Origin: an uncultured Coriobacteriaceae bacterium
GTDB lineage: Bacteria > Actinomycetota > Coriobacteriia > Coriobacteriales > Coriobacteriaceae
NCBI GenBank assembly: GCA_944322175.1
Contig: CALUOB010000001.1
Coordinates: forward strand, 62,001-126,000
Direction: 5' to 3'
DNA: 64,000 nt
How positions within the stretch are numbered: the first letter of the stretch is position 1; every line of letters begins with the position of its first letter. Under the pieces are notes generated by a model. The model did no database searches. It saw only the letters and a program-made list of their open reading frames with translations, and was not told where the DNA came from. Below are positions 5,001 to 63,040 of the stretch, one piece after another. A program made the translations under genes and the position numbers.

Positions 5001-6294
5001 GCAGACCGAGGGTGGGCTGCGCGTGACGTGCAACGCCCGCGGTACCGCCACGATCACCGTGGCGAGCAAGAGCGACCCGAGCGTGAGCCGCGATATCACG
5101 GTGAGCGTGTACGAGGGCGAGCTCCAGACCAACGTCGCAGGCGTTTCTCGACCGACGGGTGCATTCTACGTCGACGGATCGGTGCTCCACGTGAACGGCG
5201 TGGGCGCCAACAGCTTCCTGTTCTCGAGCGAGAAGTACCCGGTGGACGGCCTGACGTACGAGATTGACGTCCACCATAAGACCGGTCTGGAGAACCTCAT
5301 CTTCGGCAGCCAAGTGCAGGACGCCTATCAGGGCTGCTACGCTATCCAGCTCGACGGCAACGGCAAGATTCGCCTGTTCGATTTCAAGGGCGACAAGACG
5401 CTCTACCAGGACGACCACGCGGTTGCGGTTGACCCCGAGGGCAACTACCACGTGAAGATCTCGGTGGAGGGCAAGACCAAGACCATCAAGGTCGAGATCA
5501 ACGGCGAGCAGTACCTTGATTACACGCTCCAGGAAGGGGATCCCGACTACACCGACACCGAGGGCTACGTGGCCATCGGCATGTGGGACTCCGATCAGAC
5601 CACCTTCGAGAACTTCTACGTGGGCGGATCGGCGACCGAGGGCCCCGTCAAGGACCTGCAGGATGCGATCGACGAGGTGACCGACAAGGTCGACGGCCTT
5701 GATTCGTCCGACTACACCGAGGACTCGTGGGCGGCGCTCCAGGAGGCGCTGAAGAACGCCCAGACGGTGCTGGAAGACAAGAACGCTACGAAGACCGATA
5801 TGGCCGAGGCCGCGCAGGCGCTGCGCGACGCGTTCGATGCGCTGGAGAAGGTCGGGTCGAGCGAGGAGCCCGGCGGAGACGAGAAGCCTGGCGGAGACGA
5901 GAAGCCCGGCGACGACCAGAAACCCGGCAGCGGCGACGACCAGAAACCCGGCAGCGGCGACGACCAGAAGCCCGGCAGCGGGGATGACCAGAAGCCCGGC
6001 AGCGGCGACGACCAGAAGCCCGGCAGCGGGGATGACCAGAAGCCCGGCAGCGATAAGCCGGCGGGCGGCAACCAGGGCTCCGGCCAGGGCGGCAGCCAGC
6101 AGACGGGCGGCAGCGGCTCTTCTCAGGGCGGATCTGCATCTGGTTCCGGCCAGACGTCCGGATCGGCCACGGCAGGTGGCCTGCCCTCGACGGGCGATAC
6201 GATCGCCCTTGCGGCGGGCGCTACGGCAGTGGTAGGTGCCGGTGCGCTCGGAGGCGCGTACGTCCTGCGCCGCCGCAAGCGCAACCAGCAGTAA
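2044..6294 (+). CDS. Cell-wall-anchored GH32 fructanase (levanase/exo-inulinase type)
   Basis: A 1416-residue surface enzyme that should release fructose from fructans or sucrose outside the cell. The start at 2044 has a GGAGG site 4 bases upstream. Order of parts: Sec signal peptide (about 1-30), acidic region, a CBM66/laminin-G-like sandwich (about 130-310), the GH32 five-blade propeller with its nucleophile motif GWGNDPCG (Asp441), the RDP motif (Asp580) and the ECPDL acid/base motif (Glu628), a GH32 C-terminal sandwich, a Big_2-like domain (about 960-1025), a second CBM66-like domain (about 1035-1200), a FIVAR-like helical repeat (about 1205-1275), a Pro/Gly/Asp stalk and an LPSTG sortase motif (1380-1384) with a hydrophobic span and RRRKR tail. 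B. subtilis SacC also pairs GH32 with CBM66 and follows a mannose-family PTS. The exact linkage preference cannot be read from sequence. Confidence 0.93.
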   Translation: MNGRRIAWGTAATLAIVAGLSLPAPVLAEPEVVETAVTDVAQEPSETDDVTAEVDGLSQEAEALSQEAAPAADGEESTEEASEKDAKADDDAEAAEDGAFESNLTGDYKEFGTGETTETAGGLRVASTGGDYMVRWQDEGASLGDMVYSADVSFESADVDGAASLVLHSDDGDLGAMQSYVANVNPKTGECRLFKFEQTANEGRISYNMLTPIQLGASVSDTFHLSVTTIGKHMVFSVSYEDAEGNTVTKTASTADYTLGTADNNEEVYAHYGQNTALREGYCGLLSFNADVTYQNVTATPLTESNTPQLTSLNITGDTVDMPFAFQDTAYVYVGYVRNSADSVKIVYETTNADACVSVADAEGNVYEPKGGTVSVPVTNRGTDARNEGLNQYSLTVKDPDTGAVAVYQLRVFCEGPDDTYYYEDQRDQYHYSVKNGWGNDPCGLVKTSDGVYHFYYQAYTDTDWGPMHWGYATSKDLVHWEEQPIALYPDEYGAQFSGCGVYADHTTAPEIFDEGEEGMVFIVTANGREGQDGKQRLTLAYAKYDPSKETMGAYQKYDDVLLDYSTDDIITPADGAFRDPKVFRFDGKWFLIVAGGPVRFYSSDDLVHWKGESYLNEPGTENHVYTECPDLYPVKAEDGTVKWILSRGGTSYKVGEFENVGHTNVEGGQYAFVQDKGTPDYTMNFGRDAYAAMTYFNAGSDFGTSGSVNCPELVAMNWMNTWDYNKLVQNTGNWRFNGTYNLPVKLGLTQDSDGAYRLTQDPVDSLDGLRDESGKVTVDGLKLGKDDAVTPIDFNGTSYEIEATFTPEKGEQPTVGFDVRVGAGQKTRVSYDFATDTITLDRSKSGSILNDAFAQPRSQANVDHNEDGSVTLHVYVDRMSIEVFTGDYVAAGANQIFPSPLADGLQAFSENGTATLDATVYPLKTIWGDEQTGTPSSSAQSIGLSRDTVTGYAGTTADISAWVSPAAAPQDLTIKSSDPSVASAEQTEGGLRVTCNARGTATITVASKSDPSVSRDITVSVYEGELQTNVAGVSRPTGAFYVDGSVLHVNGVGANSFLFSSEKYPVDGLTYEIDVHHKTGLENLIFGSQVQDAYQGCYAIQLDGNGKIRLFDFKGDKTLYQDDHAVAVDPEGNYHVKISVEGKTKTIKVEINGEQYLDYTLQEGDPDYTDTEGYVAIGMWDSDQTTFENFYVGGSATEGPVKDLQDAIDEVTDKVDGLDSSDYTEDSWAALQEALKNAQTVLEDKNATKTDMAEAAQALRDAFDALEKVGSSEEPGGDEKPGGDEKPGDDQKPGSGDDQKPGSGDDQKPGSGDDQKPGSGDDQKPGSGDDQKPGSDKPAGGNQGSGQGGSQQTGGSGSSQGGSASGSGQTSGSATAGGLPSTGDTIALAAGATAVVGAGALGGAYVLRRRKRNQQ
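5911..6051 (+). repeat. 24-bp tandem repeat coding for the wall-spanning stalk
   Basis: Six units of about 24 bp encode DDQKPGSG, preceded by two GGDEKP units. Such Pro/Gly/charged repeats commonly carry a sortase-anchored enzyme through the peptidoglycan. Copy number is likely to vary between strains because the units are nearly identical. Confidence 0.9.
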
Positions 6295-6302
6295 ATGCTG
6301 CG

Positions 6303-6330
6303 AGGCCCGCGTCCAACGCGGCGCGGGCCT
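6303..6330 (+). terminator. Hairpin after the fructanase gene
   Basis: A 9-bp stem (aggcccgcg 6303-6311 with cgcgggcct 6322-6330) starts 8 bases after the stop codon. There is no T-run behind it; instead it runs directly into a second, longer inverted repeat. Confidence 0.5.
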
Positions 6331-6410
6331 GCGCAGGTTGCGAGAGCGAGCAAAGCGGGTGCACGCCTAAGTGCCGAGACGCGCGCCGGCCGCTCTCGCA
6401 ACCTGCGCAG
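6329..6410. repeat. 18-bp perfect inverted repeat with 46-nt spacer
   Basis: The arm ctgcgcaggttgcgagag (6329-6346) is exactly complementary to 6393-6410. It overlaps the previous hairpin by 2 bases, which makes the two stems partly exclusive. It lies in the leader of the following HAD phosphatase gene, 53 bases before its start. Confidence 0.8.
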
Positions 6411-6463
6411 ACATAAGACGGCGCAACGAACAGGGCTGCGCCCTGAGAGAGGCGGAGATCGCG

Positions 6464-7258
6464 ATGAAGACCGTGGTATTCAGCGATATTGACGGCACGC
6501 TCCTCAATTCGGAGCACCAGATCACGCCGCGCACCAAGCGCGCGATCGAGCGGCTCGAGGCATCGGGCACGCCCTTTGTGGTTGTGACGGCGCGCGGCAT
6601 CACGGGCACGTATCCGGTGCTCGAGCAGAGCGGCATCAGCTGCTCGGTCATCACCTACAGCGGCGGCGTCATCTTGGACGAGCAGCGCCGCATCGTCGAT
6701 CATCACGGACTCAGCAAGGCCCAGGCGCAGGAAATCGTGGAGTTTTGCGATGCCGAGGGCTTTGACATGGTGTGGAACGCGTACTCGTTCGAGGACTGGG
6801 TCGTGCCCGACAAGAGCGATGCCCGCGTGCAGAAGGAAGAGTCCATCGTCATGGCCGAAGCGCGCGAGGGGACGATCGCGTCAATCGAGCGTGACGAGGT
6901 GCAGAAGATCCTCTGCATCTGCAATCCCGAGAAGACGCATGAGATCGAGCGCCGTCTCAAGGAGCGCTTTCCCGAGCTTTCGATCGCGCTTTCCGCCGCT
7001 GATCTTATCGAGGTCATGCAGGCGGGTACGACCAAGGCCAGGGCCGTGCGCCGCCTCTGCGACCTGTGGGGCGTCGACCCTGCTGACGCCATTGCATTTG
7101 GCGACAACTACAACGACGTGCCGATGCTCGAGGCGGTGGGGCAGGGCTACCTCATGGCCAACGCGCCGGCTGAGCTTCTCGACCGCCTGCCTTTGCACAC
7201 GGCGAGCAACGACGAGGACGGCATTGCCGCAGCGCTCGAGAAACTCGGGCTTCTGTAG
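6464..7258 (+). CDS. HAD-superfamily (Cof-type, IIB) phosphatase
   Basis: A 264-residue hydrolase expected to dephosphorylate a small metabolite such as a sugar phosphate or flavin phosphate in the cytoplasm. Motif I is FSDIDGTLL at residues 6-14 with the two catalytic Asp residues; motif II is VVVTARG; the C-terminal motif GDNYNDVPML supplies the Mg-binding acids. The cap domain between them is of the C2 type seen in Cof proteins. ATG at 6464 follows a GGAG site; the frame is open upstream only through the inverted-repeat region. The gene stands alone, so the substrate cannot be inferred from neighbours. Confidence 0.9.
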   Translation: MKTVVFSDIDGTLLNSEHQITPRTKRAIERLEASGTPFVVVTARGITGTYPVLEQSGISCSVITYSGGVILDEQRRIVDHHGLSKAQAQEIVEFCDAEGFDMVWNAYSFEDWVVPDKSDARVQKEESIVMAEAREGTIASIERDEVQKILCICNPEKTHEIERRLKERFPELSIALSAADLIEVMQAGTTKARAVRRLCDLWGVDPADAIAFGDNYNDVPMLEAVGQGYLMANAPAELLDRLPLHTASNDEDGIAAALEKLGLL

Positions 7259-15888: not shown

Positions 15889-15917
15889 TGGACAAACAGG
15901 TAGAAAGTTCGCATAAT
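15889..15917 (+). promoter_or_regulatory. Strong sigma-70-type promoter of the radical SAM island
   Basis: TGGACA (15889-15894) and CATAAT (15912-15917) with 17-base spacing, each one mismatch from consensus. Predicted start of RNA is near 15924, 43 bases before the 27-codon ORF. This is the best consensus promoter in the window. Confidence 0.7.
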
Positions 15918-15966
15918 TCCAGTATTAATTAAAAGAATCACTTAATGAGTTGAGAGGGAAGCCAAT

Positions 15967-16050
15967 ATGTTGTTCTATGGGATTAAGCACACGGGGAAGA
16001 TATGCTCTAACATCGGGATCTCTGGAGTTTGCCTGACAATCGGGGCGTAA
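15967..16050 (+). CDS. 27-residue peptide at the head of the island transcript
   Basis: A short frame (ATG 15967 to TAA 16050) with AGAGGGA 8 bases upstream, directly behind a near-consensus promoter. The peptide begins MLFYGIKHTGK, then has two Cys residues (13 and 22) within a Gly/Ile/Ser-rich half (CSNIGISGVC) and ends in LTIGA. It could be a leader peptide, a signal peptide or a minimal modified-peptide precursor for the radical SAM protein 1 kb downstream. Nothing proves translation, and its small size keeps confidence low. Confidence 0.4.
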   Translation: MLFYGIKHTGKICSNIGISGVCLTIGA

Positions 16051-16149
16051 ATGGCAGTTGCTTGGTGATCACCGCGTTCTTGGCGACGAACTTCTTCGTT
16101 ACGGTTGCGGCGGTTCTTCTAGTTGGATATGAGCCAGGGAGTGGCCCTC

Positions 16150-16698
16150 ATGATTATGGGGACAAATGCAATAAAGAAGGCGTTGGAACTACTGCGAGTA
16201 CGGTCAAAGTATCTTCGTATTGTGGTTTTAGCGCTGCTCGCAATATACGTTGTGGGCAGTTGCGCAGTGCTTGGCATGCTTGTGATCAGTTGCGTGAGCG
16301 GCTCCTTCTCCTCGCTAGATTATCTTAACTTGGGTCTTTCTGTGGTGGTGTCGGTCCTATCGATTGCTGCCTCGGCTTGCATTATGACAGTGCTGCTGCG
16401 ATCCTTCGAAGATATTGCTGCTTTGCGCTCGCCATTCTCAAGGCGCCAGGCAAAGCGGTTTCGGCTCGCGGGCGTGCTCATGGTCGTCAAATTTGTCCTG
16501 CTTCTTGTCGCGTCGGTCCTTCCGACGGTTGCCTTGCAAGTTGGCGAGGTGTCGTTCGGGTTTCCCACTGTGTCGGATGCTCCTGGATCGCCTGTTTTAG
16601 ACTTCTCTTCCTTGTTGTGGGCTGTAGTGCTGTTCGGCTTGTCGTATATTTTCCAATACGGGACTTTGCTCCAAGAACTTTCAGACGACACCGTATAG
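16150..16698 (+). CDS. DUF2975-like four-span membrane protein
   Basis: A 182-residue membrane protein with four clear hydrophobic segments (about residues 20-45, 55-80, 105-130 and 150-172) and an Arg/Lys-rich loop in the middle. Its size, topology and position immediately before a small XRE regulator match DUF2975 proteins, which are normally paired with YozG-like regulators; the family call is from this pattern. AGGGAG precedes ATG 16150 by 8 bases; in-frame starts at 16129 (ATG) and 16123 (TTG) are possible. Function of the family is unknown. Confidence 0.7.
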   Translation: MIMGTNAIKKALELLRVRSKYLRIVVLALLAIYVVGSCAVLGMLVISCVSGSFSSLDYLNLGLSVVVSVLSIAASACIMTVLLRSFEDIAALRSPFSRRQAKRFRLAGVLMVVKFVLLLVASVLPTVALQVGEVSFGFPTVSDAPGSPVLDFSSLLWAVVLFGLSYIFQYGTLLQELSDDTV

Positions 16699-16707
16699 GT
16701 GGATGGC

Positions 16708-16977
16708 ATGGCAATTATCTTTAACCTCGACAGGCTCCTCGCATCCAAGAAGATGCGGTCCGTCGAGCTTGCGGAGAAGCTCGGCTGTACGGTTCAAACT
16801 ATCTCGAGGATAAAGAACGGTCGGGTTCGGGCTTTCCGGATTGAGACTATCGACCAGCTTTGCGAGATATTTCAGTGCCAACCCGGAGATCTTCTCGAAT
16901 ACATGAGCGACGACGAAGCGAGAAGACGCTTTGGAGACGAGTATCTCGAGGAGCGTAAACGCTATTACTCCGGTTAG
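16708..16977 (+). CDS. YozG-like XRE-family helix-turn-helix regulator
   Basis: An 89-residue Cro/CI-type DNA-binding protein: FNLDRLLASKKMRSVELAEKLGCTVQTISRIKNGRVRAFRIETIDQLCEIFQCQPGDLLEY covers nearly the whole chain, as in YozG proteins. ATG at 16708 has AGGTGG 5 bases upstream; a GTG three codons earlier is the alternative. It begins 9 bases after the DUF2975-like gene, so they form a pair and it probably controls the island. Confidence 0.85.
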   Translation: MAIIFNLDRLLASKKMRSVELAEKLGCTVQTISRIKNGRVRAFRIETIDQLCEIFQCQPGDLLEYMSDDEARRRFGDEYLEERKRYYSG

Positions 16978-17024
16978 ATGTTCATTGTATAGAACCGGCA
17001 CAATAGGTGGGTGTTGGTAGGGAT

Positions 17025-18278
17025 ATGTGCGGCAGTACGGGCTTCGCCGGAAGTGTGCAGCTAGTTGACTACGATGGGCTGCCGGTGCTTGTAAATTACA
17101 CTACTGGTGCTGTTGTCGGGCTGACTCGGGATGGGCTTCAGCTCTGCAAGTGCTTTATCTCAGGTCAGCTCGCGCGAGCAGATTTCCGTGCGGCTGATGT
17201 GCAGCTGTACACTTTTCTCGAAGACGGTGGTTACCTCGATGAGTCTGAGTTTGAAGGATCCGATAATTCCTGCATGGAGTCAGCGTATTTGCACGTCACG
17301 CAGCGCTGCAATCTAGACTGCCGGGGCTGCTATTCGAGAAATACGACGCGTAATCGAATCCCAGACCCTAGCCTATCTATGCTCGAACGAGCGGTTGATG
17401 GGCTTTCGCGATGCGGCGTAAGGCGACTCATTATTTCAGGTGGAGAACCATTCTTGCGCGAAGATCTCGCGTTGCTGGTGGATCATGCCTTCGCTCAGCA
17501 CGGTATAGACAATATATCTATCTTATCGAATGGCCTCTGTATTGACGATCATGCTTTAGATGCCCTGCAGGAAACTCCTGCGCAGATTGCCGTGTCCTTT
17601 GACGGGTATAGCCGTGACTGTGAGGCCTTCATTCGGGGTGAGCAGCGTTTTGATTGCCTCGTATCAGCTGTGGAGAGAATTAAACGGTACGGTATCCCTG
17701 TGCACCTCATCGTTACCATACATCGAAAGAATTACAGAGACCTAGCAGCATATGCCAGTTTGGCAGAGAAGCTGGGCACGACGTTTAACTACAGCATCTT
17801 TACCTGTGGTGCCTGTAACGATGGCTTACGGGATCTTGTTCCCGGCGACTTAGAGCTTAGAGAAATAGCAAAATCGTTGCTGCAGCTTGGCCTGTCCAAC
17901 GCTCCTATGGAGAGCGGGGCTGGGGTAGCGCTCGTTGCAAAGAAGGGGTGCGGGGCAGGGATTCGTACGGTGAGTATCGATGCAGACGGTACGATTTATC
18001 CATGCCATATGTTCCACGCTGAGGAGTATGCGCTGGGAAACGCATTCTTTGGCTCCATTGAAGACGCTCGGAGACGGTTGAATGCCACCGGGTTTGCAAA
18101 CTATGAGCCGGCGGAGACGGCGCTCTGCCGCGACTGTTCGTACGTTGCGTTTTGTGCCGGCGGCTGTCGTGCGAGAGCATATGGTTTGCACGGTGACATT
18201 AGTGCTCTGGATCCGTATTGCTCACTTATGAAAGAGTTCTACCGGGGCCTTGCATTGCGTTTGCGCAAAATGTCCTAA
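17025..18278 (+). CDS. Radical SAM/SPASM protein with PqqD-like (RRE) N-terminus
   Basis: A 417-residue iron-sulfur enzyme of the peptide-modifying radical SAM class. The first ~80 residues (LVDYDGLPVLVNYTTGAVVGLT... LYTFLEDGGYLDE) look like a PqqD-type peptide-recognition domain. The 4Fe-4S/SAM site is CNLDCRGC (Cys95, 99, 102), followed by the GGEP motif (IISGGEPFLRED). The C-terminal SPASM part has many Cys residues: CGAGIRTVSIDADGTIYPCH, CRDCSYVAFCAGGC and DPYC. SPASM/RRE enzymes mature ribosomal peptides through thioether, epimer or C-C links. Start: ATG 17025 is chosen; GTG 17007 is the alternative and neither has an ideal ribosome site. The substrate is unknown; candidates are the 27-residue peptide and the exported protein downstream. 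Confidence 0.88.
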   Translation: MCGSTGFAGSVQLVDYDGLPVLVNYTTGAVVGLTRDGLQLCKCFISGQLARADFRAADVQLYTFLEDGGYLDESEFEGSDNSCMESAYLHVTQRCNLDCRGCYSRNTTRNRIPDPSLSMLERAVDGLSRCGVRRLIISGGEPFLREDLALLVDHAFAQHGIDNISILSNGLCIDDHALDALQETPAQIAVSFDGYSRDCEAFIRGEQRFDCLVSAVERIKRYGIPVHLIVTIHRKNYRDLAAYASLAEKLGTTFNYSIFTCGACNDGLRDLVPGDLELREIAKSLLQLGLSNAPMESGAGVALVAKKGCGAGIRTVSIDADGTIYPCHMFHAEEYALGNAFFGSIEDARRRLNATGFANYEPAETALCRDCSYVAFCAGGCRARAYGLHGDISALDPYCSLMKEFYRGLALRLRKMS

Positions 18279-18431
18279 CTCCTTAAAAACAGTCAATACT
18301 GTTCGACAGATTGAGTACTAATCGATGGAATCTATTGAAATAGTTAAGCAAATTGATTAACATATTAAGCAATTCATGAGTGGATTAGCCGAAAGATGCA
18401 ATCGCGAGCATGTAGAAAGGGGCGTGGGGAA

Positions 18432-18824
18432 ATGAAGTGGTTGAAGTCGAAGGGGCGTATTGTTGCAGCCGTGGGACTTGCCACGATGCTTGTTCTGTCC
18501 TTCGGAGTGTCTGCCTTTGCCTCGTCTGGCACTTTCGGGTATACGCTCCCCGGTTATCAGGAGAACGTTACTGTGCGTTCGGGCACCCGTACGAGTTCGT
18601 CAACGGGCGCGTCTGTTCGAATTGACCAGGGTGGCACAAAAAGGCTTTGGCTGTGGTGCGATGCACCGAAAGTCAACACGCGCGTGACCAATTCGTGCCT
18701 TGTCACAAAGAACACGCGCTATACCCTCTCATATTGGAGTAGGGCAAAGGGAAATGTCTATCTCCGTGCTTGTACGGATGGATGGCAGGAGCCTAATTAT
18801 ATTTCGGGCACCGTGTCGTTCTAG
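18432..18824 (+). CDS. Small Sec-exported protein (DUF2712/bacteriocin-like outline)
   Basis: A 130-residue precursor with a textbook signal peptide (MKWLKSKGRIVAAVGLATMLVLSFGVSAFA, cleavage near residue 30; GGGGA at 18427 is its ribosome site). The mature part is short, Ser/Thr/Tyr/Trp-rich and beta-like: GTFGYTLPGYQENVTVRSG at its start, three Cys residues (in LWCDAP, NSCLV and RACTDG) and a C-terminal YISGTVSF. The layout resembles small DUF2712 or lactococcin-972-like proteins that sit beside two-permease ABC transporters. It is followed by a stable hairpin and then the transporter genes. Being Sec-exported, it is an unusual partner for a radical SAM enzyme. Assignment is by outline only. 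Confidence 0.7.
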   Translation: MKWLKSKGRIVAAVGLATMLVLSFGVSAFASSGTFGYTLPGYQENVTVRSGTRTSSSTGASVRIDQGGTKRLWLWCDAPKVNTRVTNSCLVTKNTRYTLSYWSRAKGNVYLRACTDGWQEPNYISGTVSF

Positions 18825-18856
18825 TCAATTGCGAATTCGCTAATTCTCTCACCAAG

Positions 18857-18897
18857 GGTGCAGGTCTCTTGTGACGATGTCTTACGGGACCTGCACC
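18857..18897 (+). promoter_or_regulatory. Stable hairpin between exported-protein gene and ABC genes
   Basis: ggtgcaggtc (18857-18866) pairs exactly with gacctgcacc (18888-18897) around a 21-nt loop, without a T-run. In bacteriocin operons such hairpins often cause partial termination or protect the precursor mRNA, giving more precursor than transporter. Confidence 0.55.
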
Positions 18898-18924
18898 AAT
18901 TCTGAGTAGAGACAGGTAAGACTC

Positions 18925-19770
18925 ATGCATGGACTGTACAGTGCTTTATTTAAGCACATGCTTCGTCGGTGGCAGTTTTCTGCAGCGATCTTAGCCGCAG
19001 CGTTGTTTGCCCTGGCTTCGTTCTCAGAGACCTGCTTCCGTTATTATGGATCCGATCTCGGCGAAGTGCCGTCGCCTGCTTATGGATGGGCATGGAATAT
19101 GACCGCCATGCAAAATAATTCTGCCAGAATATACTTGTTCTTTTTTATGTTGCCCCTTGCGGCGCTCATATTCTCGGGCAGTGCGCGCCAAGATATTGTG
19201 TCTGGAAGCAGCGCCTGTTTTATTTCTAGAATGTCTTTGCGTCGCTATATCGTGGCGCATGCGGTCATGAGCTTTGTTGCTGGTTTTGCTCTCACCCTCT
19301 CCCTTTTATGCTTATTACAGGCTCTGGCCTTTATAGCGTTCCCGCTGTCAGGGGTTTCTGAAGGCTATATAGATACCCCGATATATCTCGATGTTATTCC
19401 TACGGATGGGATGCTTGCAGGCACAAAGGCTTCCTTGCCGTATGTATACAACGTCATTTTTATGGTATGGACGTCGACTTGGGCGGGGGCTTCCTCTCTG
19501 ATATCGTTCGGGCTGTCGTTGTTGATCAAGGGTAGTAAAGCCTTTGCCCTCTTGTCTCCGACTGCGTTTTGGCTTGCTGTTTTTCAGGTGTCCCCGTTGT
19601 TGCCGTCGTCTTGGTCGGGGTGCCTGTACATGAACCTGTCTTACCCGGACATAGGCTCACAGACGCTCCCCTTCCCTCTGTTCGCAGCCGTTCCGATTGC
19701 CTACCTTGCGTTTGCGCTACTGTTCATCCTCATCGTTGTGCGTGTTGAGGGGAGGGACATATTGCTGTGA
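18925..19770 (+). CDS. ABC transporter permease, island copy 1
   Basis: A 281-residue polytopic membrane protein with about six hydrophobic segments. Its outline (N-terminal span, extracytoplasmic loop containing YGWAWNMT, then paired spans, SRMSLRRYIVAHAVMS loop, further spans) parallels the protein at 46167-47042, which suggests the two are paralogues in equivalent transporters. It starts 28 bases after the hairpin and its stop overlaps the next start (GTGA). Together with the next permease and the ATPase it would form an ABC-2-type exporter or immunity transporter. Confidence 0.8.
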   Translation: MHGLYSALFKHMLRRWQFSAAILAAALFALASFSETCFRYYGSDLGEVPSPAYGWAWNMTAMQNNSARIYLFFFMLPLAALIFSGSARQDIVSGSSACFISRMSLRRYIVAHAVMSFVAGFALTLSLLCLLQALAFIAFPLSGVSEGYIDTPIYLDVIPTDGMLAGTKASLPYVYNVIFMVWTSTWAGASSLISFGLSLLIKGSKAFALLSPTAFWLAVFQVSPLLPSSWSGCLYMNLSYPDIGSQTLPFPLFAAVPIAYLAFALLFILIVVRVEGRDILL

Positions 19771-20474
19771 ATGTCATTCGACGCATGTATGCTCGCAGCA
19801 GCGGCATTCTGTGTTGCTGCGCCGTCCTTGTGCTGGTGTTGCGCCTGTTGCAGCTGTTGCTTTGGCAAGAGCTGGCGGGTGCGTCCTCTTACGAGGCTGC
19901 TGAAAGATACCTCTATTTCAACGGATGCAATATATTTGCATTTGTTTTGGTTCCCCTCTACCTGCTTGGATCAACAAGGGCGCTCCATCTTGTTAACCGT
20001 CCTTTCTATCTATTGCGAAGCGGCGGTATCGTACGAGCGTCCGTGCGTTGCTTGTGTTACGCCTGCGTGCTCGGTGCGGCTGCATCTGTGGTAACGGTGA
20101 CAAGCGGCTGTGCTGCGGTTTGGGCGTCGGGGCCAAGCGAGCCTGACTGGAGTGGTCTTGCATGCTCGGTTCTACTAGGCGGATATGTTTATGCCATAGC
20201 GCTGTTGGCGGGTATTGGTGTTGAGTTGCTATCGGGCTCATCGTCCATGGCTTATCTCGTTGTGCTGTTTTATGGGCTTTGGGATTTCATGGCGCAAAAT
20301 GTTGTTGGAGGCGGAGTTCCCTCTATTGCCTGGGGGTTGGCAAACAGTTCTTCTTGGGCGGGAACGATGCACATGGCATTCTGCTTATCGTATTACTCGT
20401 GTTGGTTGGCCGGGCTTTTTTTGATCGTGTTGCTTGCGTTCTGGCGGATAGAGTACGTGCCCAAACAGGCGTAG
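19767..20474 (+). CDS. ABC transporter permease, island copy 2
   Basis: A 235-residue membrane protein with about six spans (for example ILCCCAVLVLVLRLLQLLL and LAGLFLIVLLAFW). It starts with GTG overlapping the previous TGA, so translation is coupled. Cys-rich first span and Ser/Gly-rich loops are unusual but no catalytic motif is seen. The ATPase gene follows 38 bases later, supporting a permease role. The equivalent gene in the second cluster is at 45313-46170. Confidence 0.78.
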   Translation: MNVIRRMYARSSGILCCCAVLVLVLRLLQLLLWQELAGASSYEAAERYLYFNGCNIFAFVLVPLYLLGSTRALHLVNRPFYLLRSGGIVRASVRCLCYACVLGAAASVVTVTSGCAAVWASGPSEPDWSGLACSVLLGGYVYAIALLAGIGVELLSGSSSMAYLVVLFYGLWDFMAQNVVGGGVPSIAWGLANSSSWAGTMHMAFCLSYYSCWLAGLFLIVLLAFWRIEYVPKQA

Positions 20475-20512
20475 GTTAAACGGGCGCTGATTGTGGGGAG
20501 GCGCGAGCTGAA

Positions 20513-21181
20513 ATGTCTCGAGATCGGACTAAAGACAAGTCGAGCTTTAGCGGCGTATTGCTGGAGAATGTTAGCAAGCGTATCCGCTCCAAGATTGTGT
20601 TGGACGGAGTATCGGCATTGTTCCCGTCGGAAGGTGTCTCTGGTATAAGCGGGGCTAACGGCTCGGGTAAGACGATGTTGCTGCGAGCTATAGCGGGGAT
20701 GATACGGATCGACTCGGGGACAATTTCCGTATTCGGATCTATTGTTGATCGGTGCGGCGAGCTTCCGGTGCGTACAGGAGCGATGATCGAGCCAATCGGG
20801 CTATGGGGTGAGTTTACCGGTCTTGAGAACCTCGAGCTACTTGCTTCACTCCAGACCGGGGGCGTGGAGCCTGGCCCACGGCAGGTTCTTGAGCGAGTCG
20901 GCCTTGACCCTGATGATCGTCGCATAGTTAGGGACTATAGTCTTGGCATGAAGCAGAGGCTCTGTCTTGCTCAGGCAATTATGGGAGCGCCACGGCTGCT
21001 TCTCCTTGATGAGCCTACTAATGCGCTTGATGACAATGGGAAAAAGCTTATGAGAAGTGTGGTTGCGGCGGAACGCGAGCGTGGCGCTGCGATCGTTCTT
21101 GTTTCACATGACTTGGAAGAGCTGAATAGCTTATCGGATATTCAGTATTCCATGGCGGACGGTATGCTGCGGCAGAGGTGA
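20513..21181 (+). CDS. ABC transporter ATP-binding protein (island)
   Basis: A 222-residue nucleotide-binding subunit. Walker A is GANGSGKT (in SGISGANGSGKTMLLRAI), the signature is YSLGMKQRL, Walker B is LLLLDEPTNAL and the switch His follows in LVSHDLEEL. It is of the small CcmA/bacitracin-export type and shares wording with the protein at 44672-45316 (GSGKTML, SLGMKQRL, VVAAERERGAA), so they are paralogues. The next gene overlaps its stop by 4 bases. Confidence 0.93.
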   Translation: MSRDRTKDKSSFSGVLLENVSKRIRSKIVLDGVSALFPSEGVSGISGANGSGKTMLLRAIAGMIRIDSGTISVFGSIVDRCGELPVRTGAMIEPIGLWGEFTGLENLELLASLQTGGVEPGPRQVLERVGLDPDDRRIVRDYSLGMKQRLCLAQAIMGAPRLLLLDEPTNALDDNGKKLMRSVVAAERERGAAIVLVSHDLEELNSLSDIQYSMADGMLRQR

Positions 21182-21894
21182 TCATTGTGAGGAGGGCTTG
21201 CAGAAGGGATCGCATGAGGCGTGCGGTCTTTGTTTTGATGGGTGTGTTGCTGATGAGCGCGACGATGGTAGGCTTTCTGACGCGAATCAGCTTCAGCGAT
21301 TTTGCTTCCGATCCGAGCAGACTCAACAACCTACCTTATATTGCTGCTCCCTATTCGGTCGCCGAAGAACGGCGTTTTACCGGCAGCTCAAAAAAACATG
21401 ATGACTCTTGGCTCATTGAGCAGTCTGAACTAATCGTACACATAAGGTTTAATGGGGAGCGGAAGTATTACGCAAAATCTTTTCTTTCATCAGTTGAGGT
21501 GGCGGGCGTATACAAGGGGAGCGTTGAGCGCTCAGAGTCAGATATTATGATCTATGAGCCACTTGGAGTGTATCAGCTGACGGACCATCGTGCCGTTGTT
21601 GGAGAAGGGGCATATTTGCTTGGCGGAACGCTGATGCGAAGTGGTGCGGAGTATGTCCTGTTTTTGAAACATGCCCCTGCTCGCATGGATGTTCCTAAGG
21701 GCTATGTGCTTCTGGAGTCGCCGCTGGCAAAACTGCCTGTTAGCCGGTCTTGCCCGTATCGTTTGCTTGGCGAAGGGGAAGTCGTATCAATGTCTGAAAC
21801 GGCAAAAGTCGATCTCCTTGTCGCGAGTGAAGATGATTTTAGGAACTATGATTCAAGGTGTCTTGCACTCCTCTCACAGCTTGTTGATGATTAG
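21178..21894 (+). CDS. Membrane-anchored extracytoplasmic protein, unknown function
   Basis: A 238-residue protein with a basic N-terminus, one hydrophobic anchor (VFVLMGVLLMSATMVGFL) and a ~200-residue extracytoplasmic part. GTG at 21178 overlaps the ATPase stop; ATG at 21214 with AAGGGA upstream is an equally plausible start. The soluble part is beta-rich with motifs such as LIVHIRFNGERKYYAKSFLSSVEVAGVYKG and GEGAYLLGGTLMRSGAEYVLFLKH; I do not recognise it. It takes the position held by the anchored protein at 47039-47710 in the second cluster and may act with the transporter. Confidence 0.72.
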   Translation: MIIVRRACRRDRMRRAVFVLMGVLLMSATMVGFLTRISFSDFASDPSRLNNLPYIAAPYSVAEERRFTGSSKKHDDSWLIEQSELIVHIRFNGERKYYAKSFLSSVEVAGVYKGSVERSESDIMIYEPLGVYQLTDHRAVVGEGAYLLGGTLMRSGAEYVLFLKHAPARMDVPKGYVLLESPLAKLPVSRSCPYRLLGEGEVVSMSETAKVDLLVASEDDFRNYDSRCLALLSQLVDD

Positions 21895-21900
21895 CTCTCG

Positions 21901-22125
21901 ATGGTAGACAGCATGTCGCAGTATCGATCTTTGCTCGTTGTCTATTGCGTAGGTCCTGTGTTTGATGCTTCACGGGAATGGCACGCCGGCTCCGGCAGAG
22001 ATCTGAGTCGCTTGATTGCAAAATCTGTTGCTGCTGCCCGCGGGGAGAATGGAAACAGCACCATGGCTGATGGAATGCGCTGTTCCGTCCGCCAAGCCAA
22101 TGTAGATCAGGTTAACTGGTATTAA
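21901..22125 (+). CDS. Doubtful 74-residue ORF at the island edge
   Basis: An open frame 6 bases after the previous stop, without a clear ribosome site. The predicted peptide begins MVDSMSQYRSLLVVYCVGPV and has no recognisable domain. It may be a degraded remnant or non-coding. Listed because the stretch holds nothing else. Confidence 0.22.
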   Translation: MVDSMSQYRSLLVVYCVGPVFDASREWHAGSGRDLSRLIAKSVAAARGENGNSTMADGMRCSVRQANVDQVNWY

Positions 22126-43979: not shown

Positions 43980-44675
43980 CTAGTCCAGCGTGATGTGGAT
44001 GATGCGCTTCTCGGGCAGGTTCGAGACGATAAGGTCGAACGACCTCGACGTTATGTCGGCGTAGTAGGTATCTTCAAAGCCTTGAAAATACGGTCCCGTT
44101 ACCTGGCCGGCAAAGGGGATGTGCGCGGTGTAGCTCGTGTTCGGCGCGATTCTGAACTTGGTGCTGCCGTTGAGCTCCGGGTGGGAAAGCTCGAGTATGA
44201 ATTGGTCCAGCTGGTAGCCAAAGTTGCGTGTCTCGTCTACGGCATGCCAGAGGTATCCGAGGATGCCCGAGGTCTCGTCGGTATTGCCGTCGTTCGTGAA
44301 GGTCATGGTCAGATCGAGCACGCACGGGTTGTCGTCACAGGGCGAGCCGAGGCGCGCCGACGGATCCTTGCCGTAGCGGCTCGCATACTCGTTGGGCGAT
44401 ATCACCTCCGCCGCGTCGACGCGGATCGAGTAGCCCTTCGTTCGCTCGTCAACCGGAGATCCGACGAAGGCGCCCTCCAGGCTGACCGTATCGCCCATGT
44501 GGTAGACAACCTCAGGAATGACAAGCGCGTTGGCGTTGACCTGCGCAATGCGCATGCCAACGGCGCCGGCAAGCGCCGCGCCGGCGCAGAGCGCGCCGGC
44601 AACTACGGCGCGCCGGCTCACGGGCCGGTGCGCGACGGGGCTGTTGTGCCCCCGCTTTGCGTGTTGGCCCCTCAT
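43980..44675 (-). CDS. Exported protein with twin-arginine-like signal, ABC-associated
   Basis: A 231-residue protein, last gene of a five-gene operon. The N-terminus has SRRAVVAGALCAGAALAGAVG, a twin-arginine-like export signal. The mature part is beta-rich with paired Cys (CDDNPCVLDLTMTFTNDGNTDETSG) and resembles the DUF4352/DUF5067-type immunoglobulin-like proteins that follow ABC genes; this is a structural impression only. ATG 44675 overlaps the ATPase stop (ATGA), so expression is coupled to the transporter. Confidence 0.7.
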   Translation of the reverse strand: MRGQHAKRGHNSPVAHRPVSRRAVVAGALCAGAALAGAVGMRIAQVNANALVIPEVVYHMGDTVSLEGAFVGSPVDERTKGYSIRVDAAEVISPNEYASRYGKDPSARLGSPCDDNPCVLDLTMTFTNDGNTDETSGILGYLWHAVDETRNFGYQLDQFILELSHPELNGSTKFRIAPNTSYTAHIPFAGQVTGPYFQGFEDTYYADITSRSFDLIVSNLPEKRIIHITLD

Positions 44676-45316
44676 CGCGGATCCTCCTCCCGCACAACGC
44701 GCCCCGCCTCCATGCAGTACACGTGATCGGCGACCGCGTCGAGCACGGACTTGTCGTGGCACGCCATGAGCACGGCAGCCCCGCGCTCGCGTTCAGCGGC
44801 AACCACGCGCTTGACCATCTCCACGCCCGAGGTGTCCAGAGCGTTGGTCGGTTCGTCCAAGATCACAAGGTCGGGCTTCTCAAACACCGCAGCGGCAATG
44901 CCGAGCCGTTGCTTCATGCCGAGCGAGTACTTCTTGAACTTCTTGCGCTCGTTGGGATCGAGCCCCACCTGGGCGATGGCGCGGCGGATGTCGCGATCGG
45001 TGGCGGTGCCGTTGATCATGCCGATGAGCCGCAGGTTGTCAAAGCCCGTGCGGTTGGCGAGCAGGGCGGGACCTTCGATGAGAGCCCCGGTGCTCAGCGG
45101 GTGGGCAAGGTCCCGACCGAGTACCTTGCGGTCAAACAGGACCTCGCCGGAGGTAGGGCGCACCAGCCCGCAGATGATGCGCATGAGCATGGTCTTGCCC
45201 GATCCGTTGATGCCCCAAAGCCCGGTGACCCTGCCGGCGGGTATCTGCACCGTTACATGGTCGAGTACCGTGGCGTCCTTGAATGCTTTGGTGATGTCGC
45301 GCGCAATGACGTTCAT
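44672..45316 (-). CDS. ABC transporter ATP-binding protein (second cluster)
   Basis: A 214-residue nucleotide-binding subunit: Walker A GINGSGKTML, signature YSLGMKQRLG, Walker B LVILDEPTNALD, switch ACHDKSVLD. It is paralogous to 20513-21181. ATG 45316 has AAGGAG upstream and overlaps the preceding stop (ATGA). Confidence 0.94.
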   Translation of the reverse strand: MNVIARDITKAFKDATVLDHVTVQIPAGRVTGLWGINGSGKTMLMRIICGLVRPTSGEVLFDRKVLGRDLAHPLSTGALIEGPALLANRTGFDNLRLIGMINGTATDRDIRRAIAQVGLDPNERKKFKKYSLGMKQRLGIAAAVFEKPDLVILDEPTNALDTSGVEMVKRVVAAERERGAAVLMACHDKSVLDAVADHVYCMEAGRVVREEDPR

Positions 45317-46170
45317 GCAAACAGCTCCTTTGCGACAAGATCGGTCCTGCGGAAGAAGAAAAGCCCGCCCACAACGGACGCTGGTGCGAGCACGGCGGCT
45401 ACTCCGAGTCCCACGAGGGGACTTACCCCTCCGGGCACGGCGTCTCCGAGTCGGGCGAGCATGAGGTAGTTGCCGAGCAGCGCCGGATGCATGGTGTGCG
45501 CCGAGACCACGAGCAAGGCGGCCATGCAGCCAAACGCAACCGAGGGACGCACGATAAAGGCGAGCGTCATTTGCGCCAGGCAGAGTGCGACGCTCATGCC
45601 GAGCACTCCGGCAAAGAAGGGTAGGCTGCCGATGCCGCCCGGGGGTACGTTTGCCAGTCCTGAGACGGTGGCGAAGGCCCCTTGTGTGAGCCTGAGCGAG
45701 AAGGGCACGCCGTCGAGCACAGTAATAACGGTGGCAGCTGCGACGACGATGGCCCAAAAGGCGATAACCGTCAGCACGATCCACGCGCACTTGGAGAGCC
45801 ACCACGAGGCGCGCGACGTGCGTATGAGCGCATGCTGGCCAAACCCCATGAGGTCGCGGTACGGATAGCCGAGGGTCATGTATGCAGGGAGCAGGAGGCC
45901 CAAAAGCCAGCCTGCGGGTGGTACGAAGATAAGGCCTTGCCTGAACACATAGGGCTCACACCCGCCGACAAAGAGGGCGAGGTGGTCAGCCCAGGTGAGT
46001 GACGCCTTCTCTATACCGAAGAAGTCGCTGCCCGCCACGGCGAGCTCGATTGAGCAGAGCGCGAACAACGCCGTGAGGACGTACCAGCGGGCGCTGGCAG
46101 AGAAGCCGAGCCTGAGATCGATGAGCAGCGTACGCCATGCGGTCCACTTGGTCGTCGTATGCCTGTTCAT
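45313..46170 (-). CDS. ABC transporter permease, second cluster
   Basis: A 285-residue polytopic protein with about six spans (WYVLTALFALCSIELAVAG, WLLGLLLPAYMTLGYPY, IVLTVIAFWAIVVAAATVITVL, VLGMSVALCLAQMTLAFI, AAVLAPASVVGGLFFF). Overlaps both neighbours by 4 bases. It matches the island gene at 19767-20474 in position. Confidence 0.82.
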   Translation of the reverse strand: MNRHTTTKWTAWRTLLIDLRLGFSASARWYVLTALFALCSIELAVAGSDFFGIEKASLTWADHLALFVGGCEPYVFRQGLIFVPPAGWLLGLLLPAYMTLGYPYRDLMGFGQHALIRTSRASWWLSKCAWIVLTVIAFWAIVVAAATVITVLDGVPFSLRLTQGAFATVSGLANVPPGGIGSLPFFAGVLGMSVALCLAQMTLAFIVRPSVAFGCMAALLVVSAHTMHPALLGNYLMLARLGDAVPGGVSPLVGLGVAAVLAPASVVGGLFFFRRTDLVAKELFA

Positions 46171-47042
46171 AAGACGTCGCGCCTCCTCTCGCAAAGGAAT
46201 AGGACAAAGGAGGCTGCAGGCAGGGCAACGAGGAGCGCTGCTGCCGCCAAGGGTTCGGGAGGGTCAGAAAAATGGGTTGCCATCATGCAGTGAATCAGAT
46301 CGGTTGAGAACCCTTGCACATTGGCGAAGACGATGTTGGGCACGAGGTAGACCCAGGCCAGCAATCCCAAGTACGGGACTATGAGCGTTGCCACGCGGTT
46401 GTTGCGGAAGAGCGTCGAGATTGCGAGGCAGAGTACCGCCCAGCATCCGGCAAGGCAAAAATCGAGCAGCGTAAAGAGCGCCACAAACATGAGCGGAGCA
46501 TTGTAGAAGAACCACGAGAAGTACGAGTCGTAGAACATGCCGGTGTAGTTGCACTCATTGTATTGAGGCATGTAGGCCGGTAGAAAGCACGAGACGATGA
46601 TGAAGTTGAGCACAAGGGGCAGGGCAACAACGGTTCCTCCCACCAGAAAGCTTGCCGCCGCTTTTGCCCCGTATGCCTGGGTTCGTGTGCGGCGCAGGAG
46701 AACGTGCGCAAGATAGGAGTCGCGCTCCTGCTGGTACGACCACGAGAAGGGTATGGCTGTGAGCAGTGGTGCCAAGTAGAAGAAAACCGTTGAAGAAAGG
46801 GGAGCGTTGGCGTTAACGGCCATCCAGTTTCCGTAGCTGCTCGCGGTGCTCAGCCCGAGGAACGTGGTTGCATCCAGGCCGTAGTGCTCGCCGTCTGCCG
46901 ACATGGAGCGGTAGAGCGCATCTACCGTGGTAATAGCCTCTGCTGCAGCGACAATGGCAAGAATGCAGCCAATGGCCAGGGCAACGGAAAGCCATCTGTT
47001 CCTGAATGTTTTAGTTAGCTCGTGTGCAAGGATGCCGTTCAT
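46167..47042 (-). CDS. ABC transporter permease, second cluster
   Basis: A 291-residue membrane protein with about six spans. It starts MNGILAHELTKTFRNRW, has a large first extracytoplasmic loop and the segment YGNWMAVNANAPLSSTVFFY comparable with the island permease at 18925. Overlaps both neighbours by 4 bases (ATGA). With the two genes downstream it should form an ABC-2-type transporter. Confidence 0.82.
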   Translation of the reverse strand: MNGILAHELTKTFRNRWLSVALAIGCILAIVAAAEAITTVDALYRSMSADGEHYGLDATTFLGLSTASSYGNWMAVNANAPLSSTVFFYLAPLLTAIPFSWSYQQERDSYLAHVLLRRTRTQAYGAKAAASFLVGGTVVALPLVLNFIIVSCFLPAYMPQYNECNYTGMFYDSYFSWFFYNAPLMFVALFTLLDFCLAGCWAVLCLAISTLFRNNRVATLIVPYLGLLAWVYLVPNIVFANVQGFSTDLIHCMMATHFSDPPEPLAAAALLVALPAASFVLFLCERRRDVL

Positions 47043-47710
47043 GACCGCGCACCTCTCAGATCTTCGATGTCGAGCTTGAAACGGTATTTGTACGGATGGT
47101 TTACGCCGGCGTGGATCCAGAGATCCGAGAGGTCAGACCCCGGATCGTCGATGAGAAGACCGACGTGGTACGTGGCTTCTTGCCCCTGGGGAAGATTGAA
47201 GAACGTGTCTTCTCTTCCGTCGGGAGATGCACCTTCGGCGGTTCCGTCAAAGTAGGAGTACTCGCAGGGTTGCAGCGTGCCGAGGTACGAGATGTTGAAC
47301 CATCCTCGCTCGTCGTCATCGAAGGACAGTGCGTCGATATTGCGCATGTCAACCGTGAGGACGAGCAGCGCCCCCTTGTTCTCGTACAGCCAGTGCTCGT
47401 CGCCGAGGTCCTTCTTTGCCTCTTCGATGTTGCGGTAGAGTTTGGCGTCTTTGATGGAGACCTCCATTTTGCCGGTCCATCCAAAATAGGCCGTGTACGC
47501 ATCCCCATTAGAGAGGACGAGGGAGTCATCGGCGTCGCCGTCCAGTACCAGTGATTCTCCCGGCTGCGCGGTGGTGTTGTGTGCCTTCTTCTCTGCGGTG
47601 ATTTTCTCGTGCTGGATGTACTCAAACACCTTCATGCCGCCAAATCCAACAGCGGCAACTAGGGCAATTGCTAGAAGTGCGGCAAGTGTTCCGCGTTCTC
47701 TTCCAGTCAT
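47039..47710 (-). CDS. Membrane-anchored extracytoplasmic protein, ABC-associated
   Basis: A 223-residue protein, first gene of the operon. One N-terminal span (LAALLAIALVAAVGFGGMKVF) anchors a ~190-residue outer part rich in acidic residues (DGDADDSLVLSNGD, NIDALSFDDDERGWF). It may sense or bind the transported compound. Function not recognised; its counterpart in the island is at 21178-21894 but the sequences are not obviously alike. Its stop overlaps the first permease start. Confidence 0.75.
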   Translation of the reverse strand: MTGRERGTLAALLAIALVAAVGFGGMKVFEYIQHEKITAEKKAHNTTAQPGESLVLDGDADDSLVLSNGDAYTAYFGWTGKMEVSIKDAKLYRNIEEAKKDLGDEHWLYENKGALLVLTVDMRNIDALSFDDDERGWFNISYLGTLQPCEYSYFDGTAEGASPDGREDTFFNLPQGQEATYHVGLLIDDPGSDLSDLWIHAGVNHPYKYRFKLDIEDLRGARS

Positions 47711-61996: not shown

Positions 61997-63040
61997 ATGA
62001 GCAAGCAGTACACCGTAGCAGTTCTCGGCGCCACGGGCGCCGTGGGCACCCAGATGATCACCTGCCTCGAGGAGCAGGAGATTCCCGTCGAGCGTCTGGT
62101 GCCGCTCGCGAGCGCGCGCAGCGCCGGCAAGACCGTGCGCTTCCGCGGCGAGGACGTTGTGATCGAGGAGGCGCGCGCCGAGGCGTCCGCTTTCGAGGGC
62201 GTCGACATCGTGCTCGGTGCCGCCGAGGACGACATCGCCCGCGCCATGGCCCCCGCCATCCGCGAGGCCGGTGCCGTGTTTGTCGACAACTCGCACGCGT
62301 TCCGTCTCGACGAGGACGTGCCGCTCGTGGTGCCCGAGATCAACGCCGCCGACATCGCTCAGCACAAGGGGGTCATCTCCAATCCCAACTGCGCCACCAT
62401 CATCGGTCTGCTTGCCGCTTACCCGCTGCACAAGGCCGCCGGCCTCAAGCGTATGATCGTCTCGACCTACCAGGCGGCGAGCGGCGCGGGCGTTCCGGGC
62501 ATGCGCGAGCTCGAGGCGCAGGTGCGCGCCCTTGCCGACGACGCGCCGATGCCTAAGCCGGGCGCCTTTGCGGCCCAGCTTGCGATGAACCTGATTCCGC
62601 AGATCGGCGGCTTCAACGACGAGGGCTACACGTCCGAGGAGATGAAGATGCAAAACGAGGGCCGCAAGATCATGCATCTTCACGACCTGCGCGTGAACTG
62701 CACCTGCGTGCGCGTGCCGGTTGCCCGCTCGCATTCCGAGAGCATGACGCTTGAGTTCGAGCGCCCGATCTCGGTCAAGGAGGCCCAGGCCGTGCTTGCC
62801 GCGGCGCCGGGCGTGAAGCTCGTCGACTACCTCGACGCCGACGACGCCTCCGACCGCTACCCCATGCCGCTCGACACCACCGACCAGGACCTCATCTTCG
62901 TCGGCCGTGTGCGCCGCGACATCTCGGCGCCCGACGACGTGCCCGCCATCAGCCTGTGGTGTTGCGGCGACCAGATCCGCAAGGGCGCTGCCACCAACGC
63001 CGTTCAGATCGTCAAGGCGCTTATCGAGCAGGACGTCTAA
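61997..63040 (+). CDS. asd: Aspartate-semialdehyde dehydrogenase
   Basis: A 347-residue enzyme reducing aspartyl phosphate. The NADP fold starts VAVLGATGAVGTQMI; VDNSHAFRLDEDVPLVVPEIN and NPNCATIIGLL (catalytic Cys) are conserved, RVPVARSHSES holds the catalytic His. ATG 61997 has AAAGG 8 bases upstream. The 99 bases between lysC and asd contain no terminator, so hom-lysC-asd are probably one transcript. Confidence 0.97.
   Translation: MSKQYTVAVLGATGAVGTQMITCLEEQEIPVERLVPLASARSAGKTVRFRGEDVVIEEARAEASAFEGVDIVLGAAEDDIARAMAPAIREAGAVFVDNSHAFRLDEDVPLVVPEINAADIAQHKGVISNPNCATIIGLLAAYPLHKAAGLKRMIVSTYQAASGAGVPGMRELEAQVRALADDAPMPKPGAFAAQLAMNLIPQIGGFNDEGYTSEEMKMQNEGRKIMHLHDLRVNCTCVRVPVARSHSESMTLEFERPISVKEAQAVLAAAPGVKLVDYLDADDASDRYPMPLDTTDQDLIFVGRVRRDISAPDDVPAISLWCCGDQIRKGAATNAVQIVKALIEQDV

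Follow-up and report, generated by a model that had tools for sequence, protein, structure and literature searches.

The stretch analysed here, called the window, comprises 64,000 bases of an uncultured member of the Coriobacteriaceae (positions 62,001 to 126,000 of contig CALUOB010000001.1, assembly GCA_944322175.1), and coordinates below are those of the window unless a contig is named. The host genome is a Collinsella-like assembly of 2.1 Mb in 167 contigs, and one sister genome is labelled as uncultured Collinsella. At approximately 15.5–22.0 kb the guanine and cytosine (GC) content is 0.49–0.56, against 0.62–0.71 outside, and this low-GC island carries, all on the plus strand, every gene that an earlier reading of the same DNA (the sequence-only reading) had named, as open reading frames (ORFs) and domain matches confirm. 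The island is real, but it consists of two modules rather than one system. The first, here termed the head (15967–18278), encodes a 27-residue peptide, a DUF2975-like protein with four transmembrane helices, an HTH_26 regulator and a radical S-adenosylmethionine (SAM) enzyme of the type that modifies ribosomally synthesized peptides (RiPPs), with a RiPP recognition element (RRE) and a SPASM domain. The second, the cargo (18432–21894), encodes a Sec-exported beta-sandwich protein, two permeases and an ATPase of an ATP-binding cassette (ABC) transporter, and an anchored protein. The last ORF of the region, 21901–22125, has no support as a gene.

The 27-residue peptide MLFYGIKHTGKICSNIGISGVCLTIGA is encoded by a tiny ORF at 15967–16050. 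A search for homologues of the enzyme in 67 genomes of the family gave 17 loci in 15 genomes, to which 80 loci from named genomes were added. In Coriobacteriia the DUF2975-like gene is immediately preceded, at 48 of 50 loci, by an ORF for a peptide of 21–38 residues that starts with MLF (MQF in two) and has the core C..[IV]G...G; of the two loci without one, one begins at the edge of a contig. Both strands of these loci, 1.45 Mb in all, contained no similar ORF with a ribosome-binding site at any other position. Relative to its counterpart in a sister species (G003 in our numbering), the gene shows 8 synonymous and 3 non-synonymous codon changes (P = 5e-5 under neutral substitution), a pattern that indicates purifying selection. 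By this evidence the ORF is the precursor gene for the radical SAM enzyme; the claim that the locus lacks an obvious precursor was therefore wrong, and the claim that it is a peptide-modifying radical SAM/SPASM locus was right. One cysteine, as the thioether bonds of a sactipeptide or ranthipeptide would require, is aligned throughout the precursor family, with a second in some members. In most of the Bacillota relatives, among them Neobacillus, Lysinibacillus, Enterococcus, Staphylococcus, Kandleria and Lachnospiraceae, one to four peptide genes lie beside the enzyme (MLFATKKPATKPNCVSFGVFLCVSYGKNW is an example of the peptides); ABC genes are close by, and some loci also have LytTR/GHKL regulators. 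No NCBIfam model matched the peptides. Our literature searches were largely limited to papers outside subscription; they returned none on radical SAM RiPPs of Coriobacteriia, although a description may exist, and none with the Bacillota core motifs. Thuricin-like loci (PMC3132745) were considered as members of the same family and rejected, given that their enzyme motifs (GGEPLL) and precursors differ.

The enzyme itself (17025–18278; PF04055 1.4e-23, PF13186 8.9e-7) belongs to a family without variation in the CX3CX2C motif or in any of the seven SPASM cysteines; of 398 Coriobacteriia genomes sampled, 67 carry it. Its AlphaFold model (predicted local distance difference test, pLDDT, 82) has an N-terminal domain of three strands and three helices, of RRE type, and the predicted structure thus supports the leader-binding domain that the sequence-only reading had named. 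The best matches among solved structures were CteB (3.8e-19), TigE, SuiB, anSME, SkfB and ChlB, and the alignment covers the full length of CteB and SuiB. Because of the RRE-type domain, the cysteine motifs and these structural matches, the enzyme is by predicted architecture a peptide maturase. It shares the RRE-type N-terminal domain, the CX3CX2C motif and the full set of SPASM cysteines with CteB, SuiB, SkfB and ChlB but is only ~14–22% identical to them, and none of the NCBIfam maturase models reached its own cut-off. PADLOC matches to viperin were rejected as ordinary cross-matches among radical SAM proteins. The head hence combines the features of radical SAM/SPASM-modified RiPPs: a radical SAM core, SPASM cysteines, a predicted RRE and a short precursor under purifying selection. 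A close parallel is found in the streptococcal systems for streptide and tryglysin (PMC8092268, PMC13361665), in which a very short precursor lies beside a radical SAM/SPASM enzyme and a regulator. However, the Coriobacteriia head has a DUF2975-like protein and an HTH_26 regulator instead of Rgg/SHP, lacks a transporter and has a different precursor motif. The island also resembles the epipeptide yyd locus in placing a radical SAM enzyme near an ABC transporter, but precursor, enzyme and gene set differ (EpeE matches at only 3e-9, with a TM-score of ~0.44), the ABC genes belong to a separate module, and no model of a YydF/EpeX-like precursor or EpeE-like enzyme matched at its cut-off.

Between peptide and enzyme lie the genes for the DUF2975-like four-helix membrane protein (16150–16698, with an alternative TTG start at 16123) and the Cro/C1-type HTH_26 regulator (16708–16977), which is above the PF13443 cut-off (4.9e-20). 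The DUF2975-like assignment comes from a family hidden Markov model and from members of the family, 5 of 12 of which reach PF11188 at E<=0.1; the two genes adjoin, as expected of a DUF2975 and HTH_26 pair. Coriobacteriia enzymes adjoin such a pair, and it also stands beside the enzyme in Lysinibacillus and Neobacillus, in the gene order of the window (PF11188 1.2e-8). No paper on DUF2975 in such a role was found.

The cargo opens with the 130-residue exported protein (18432–18824), whose signal peptide was recognized by inspection and whose AlphaFold model (pLDDT 81) has eight strands; it is a bacteriocin-like candidate. It is followed by permease 1 (18925–19770), permease 2 with a GTG start (19767–20474), the ATPase (20513–21181; PF00005 2.1e-22) and an N-terminally anchored extracytoplasmic protein (21178–21894). 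Cassettes of this kind recur in 12 of the 398 Coriobacteriia genomes, with permease 1 conserved in 12 of 12, permease 2 in 11 of 12 and the anchored protein as the conserved last gene. The permeases match no family. The LanF-like ATPase is nearest to the lantibiotic-protection model TIGR03740 (7.8e-38), which recalls LanFEG transporters, but at 130 bits it stays below the cut-off of 310. The arrangement, a small beta protein secreted through Sec and ABC genes after it, also recalls lactococcin 972 systems. Membership of the exported protein in DUF2712 was considered and rejected: the window family has no match, and only the cargo of locus L040 does (2.4e-4); no paper on DUF2712 was found. In three of the 12 cassettes an internal stop interrupts the gene for the exported protein (TAA, TAG and TAG, at nearly the same place of the mature protein; L144 8200–8720, L149 7480–8050 and L150 7150–7720), with the transporter genes open. 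Decay, assembly error or another cause may account for these stops; stops beside intact transporters are what would be expected if a toxin decays before its immunity. Elsewhere in the window, a GC-rich cassette on the minus strand (43980–47635) has the gene order of the island cassette, with a 198-residue DUF5027-like protein, two permeases, an ATPase and a 231-residue DUF5028 anchored protein; a weak match (1.2e-4) links its permease 1 to that of the island, and the cassette is possibly a resident paralogue.

The modules separate at several places. Only in the window and in one further genome (G033) does the cassette lie beside a head, and in the other 10 of 12 genomes no enzyme adjoins it; the G033 head is only 40% identical to that of the window and sits at another chromosomal site, with the same cassette. 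In G065 the cassette is carried, beside a ParA-like gene and without a radical SAM gene, on a 12-kb contig (L025, G065:C24, 12125 bases) whose overlapping ends repeat the same partition gene; by this overlap the contig is very probably a circular plasmid. The cargo was found in no PLSDB plasmid. The transporter that the sequence-only reading assigned to the enzyme thus belongs to the exported protein. That the grouping recurs in G033 speaks against pure accident, although most enzymes have no cassette as neighbour. Because the cassette is mostly found without a head, and once alone on a plasmid, modification of the exported protein by the enzyme, as had been suggested, is improbable. Such a single system would have in its favour that the two genes adjoin in two genomes, that in anaerobic sulfatases cytoplasmic radical SAM modification precedes Sec export, and that anSME is among the structural matches. 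It is nevertheless very unlikely: the enzyme family is accompanied nearly everywhere by a dedicated peptide, G065 and G019 carry the exported protein with no such enzyme found at the threshold used, and the sister's 95% identical enzyme adjoins an unrelated exported protein. Slightly less improbable, but still unlikely, is that the ABC cassette exports the modified peptide, with the exported protein as its chaperone or receptor. The island has no other transporter and ABC genes adjoin the peptide genes in Bacillota relatives; against this, the cassette occurs on the G065 plasmid without peptide or enzyme, and beside most heads in Coriobacteriia there are no such ABC genes.

Two chromosomal sites show the exchange directly. 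Between the 98-codon gene (15337) and glmS (22418), only 212 and 426 bases are present in the congeners G001 and G002, where the island site is thus empty. At the same site the window carries head plus ABC cassette, and in sister G003 the head is followed by an unrelated exported protein of 185 residues and a membrane peptide of 48 residues; homology between the two ends at 18264, the end of the radical SAM gene, and resumes at 22093. On both sides of the G003 insert lies a terminator-like repeat of 40 bp (90% identical). The second site, between folB and ygiQ, is in a different genus. Here G020 and G032 lack a head, and in G022 the head stands alone, 16 bases from ygiQ; in G043 it is accompanied by genes for a thioredoxin-like protein, an exported DUF2599 protein and a membrane protein, and in G033 by the cassette of the window. 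In the radical SAM tree the window lineage lies outside the Collinsella/Enorma clade that includes G033, and the two pairings therefore look independent. From a rough count of positions we infer that adjacency in two of four Coriobacteriaceae cassettes is far above chance. By a crude signal predictor and inspection, an exported protein lies beside the head in 10 of 17 loci of the family, against few in other families; some have twin-arginine-like signals, often with a small membrane protein. In an uncultured Enterorhabdus (Eggerthellaceae; L047) a lactococcin 972 gene (6276–6623, minus strand; PF09683 2.3e-11) is divergent from a head. Other heads adjoin a thioredoxin-like protein, a cysteine-containing exported protein and a small membrane protein (L032 6352–7342, minus strand, and L028 10172–11401), and these are candidate disulfide bacteriocin loci. 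A second head type in the same genus (L037 5552–7276 and L039 5319–7031, both minus strand) has a divergent LysR-type regulator, exported proteins with twin-arginine-like signals and a hydrophobic C-terminal half, and a membrane protein of 138–142 residues.

A putative operator links the two modules. The sigma-70-like head promoter TGGACA-N17-CATAAT (15889–15917) matches the consensus at 10 of 12 positions and is kept in the sister (L023) as TAGACA-N17-CATAAT. The near-consensus promoter that had been reported is thus present, but such matches are no commoner than in shuffled sequence (4 found against 5.0 expected), and promoter and terminator scans gave no excess over shuffles. Just after it lies ATTAAAAGAATCACTTAAT (15928–15946), of the form RTTAAN9TTAAY, and a second copy, GTTAAGCAAATTGATTAAC (18343–18361), precedes the cargo. 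The expected number in the island is 0.012, and none of 2000 simulated islands had two. One further copy in the host genome lies on a low-GC contig (L043, G000:C158), which is probably contamination; its genes include an Hsp20-like gene, with others foreign to the host genome. The sister G003 also has the pair, before the peptide and before its different cargo, and the regions upstream of the two cargoes match at 16 of 18 positions though the cargoes are unrelated. The shared putative operator could be a kept site or a shared remnant. Shared operators in other loci, such as L040 (15 of 18), were rejected because 15 of 18 was also reached in 3 of 70 unrelated pairs.

Sequence comparison supports the architecture well: the island itself, the family of precursors, the limits of the modules, the exchange of cargo, the empty sites and the operator-like repeat. 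From this architecture we infer peptide modification, a signalling role, regulation by the island regulator, bacteriocin activity and an immunity function. The explanation we favour, with about an even chance of being right, is an inserted modular competition locus in which a radical SAM RiPP head, signalling or regulatory, drives an exchangeable bacteriocin-like cargo. The enzyme would modify the short peptide on its cysteine/glycine-rich C-terminal half to give a RiPP; the DUF2975-like protein and HTH_26 regulator, as a membrane-coupled pair, would respond to it or to a related signal and control the head and cargo promoters through the putative operators. Secreted through Sec, the beta-sandwich protein of the cargo would act as effector, most likely of the bacteriocin type, the LanFEG-like transporter and anchored protein would protect the producer, and related bacteria would retain the head and swap the cargo. 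The main rival, possible but doubtful, is that two independent bacteriocin systems share one insertion hot spot with no functional link, the head making its own modified antimicrobial peptide. Consistent with this, 10 of 12 genomes have the cargo with no adjoining head, most heads are without the cassette, Bacillota relatives have dedicated ABC transporters and, in some loci, LytTR/GHKL regulators as are typical of bacteriocin loci, and head and cassette share a genome in only 4 of 12 cases against heads in 67 of 398, which is not clearly above background. The chief evidence against it is the putative operator common to head and cargo in two sister species, along with the same cassette adjoining divergent heads at two sites. 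Several observations count against head-driven cargo. The operator pair was found in the two sister species only, and head and cargo promoters in other loci share no sites above chance. Heads outside Coriobacteriaceae mostly have no exported cargo nearby, and the head must hence have a function of its own. The DUF2975-like protein of the window is below the PF11188 Pfam model, and the exported protein matches no Pfam family and not lactococcin 972 (PF09683/TIGR01653), its structure search giving only generic beta-sandwich matches (best TM-score 0.57) and no specific toxin fold.

The head defines an apparently undescribed radical SAM RiPP precursor family (~21–38 residues, MLF start, C..[IV]G core) in gut Coriobacteriia and many Bacillota, found in no NCBIfam model and no paper searched; genes as small as the precursor tend to be missed by annotation. 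The DUF2975/HTH_26 pair, otherwise without function, gains a testable role, and a constant head accompanies exchangeable secreted cargo at fixed chromosomal sites. Tentatively, the head may be a portable peptide switch, in which a radical SAM-modified micropeptide signal acts through DUF2975/HTH_26 to command whichever secreted weapon adjoins, such that one pheromone class would govern interchangeable bacteriocins across Coriobacteriia. If the head does regulate the cargo, these loci would lend themselves readily to studying how peptides control competition among gut bacteria.

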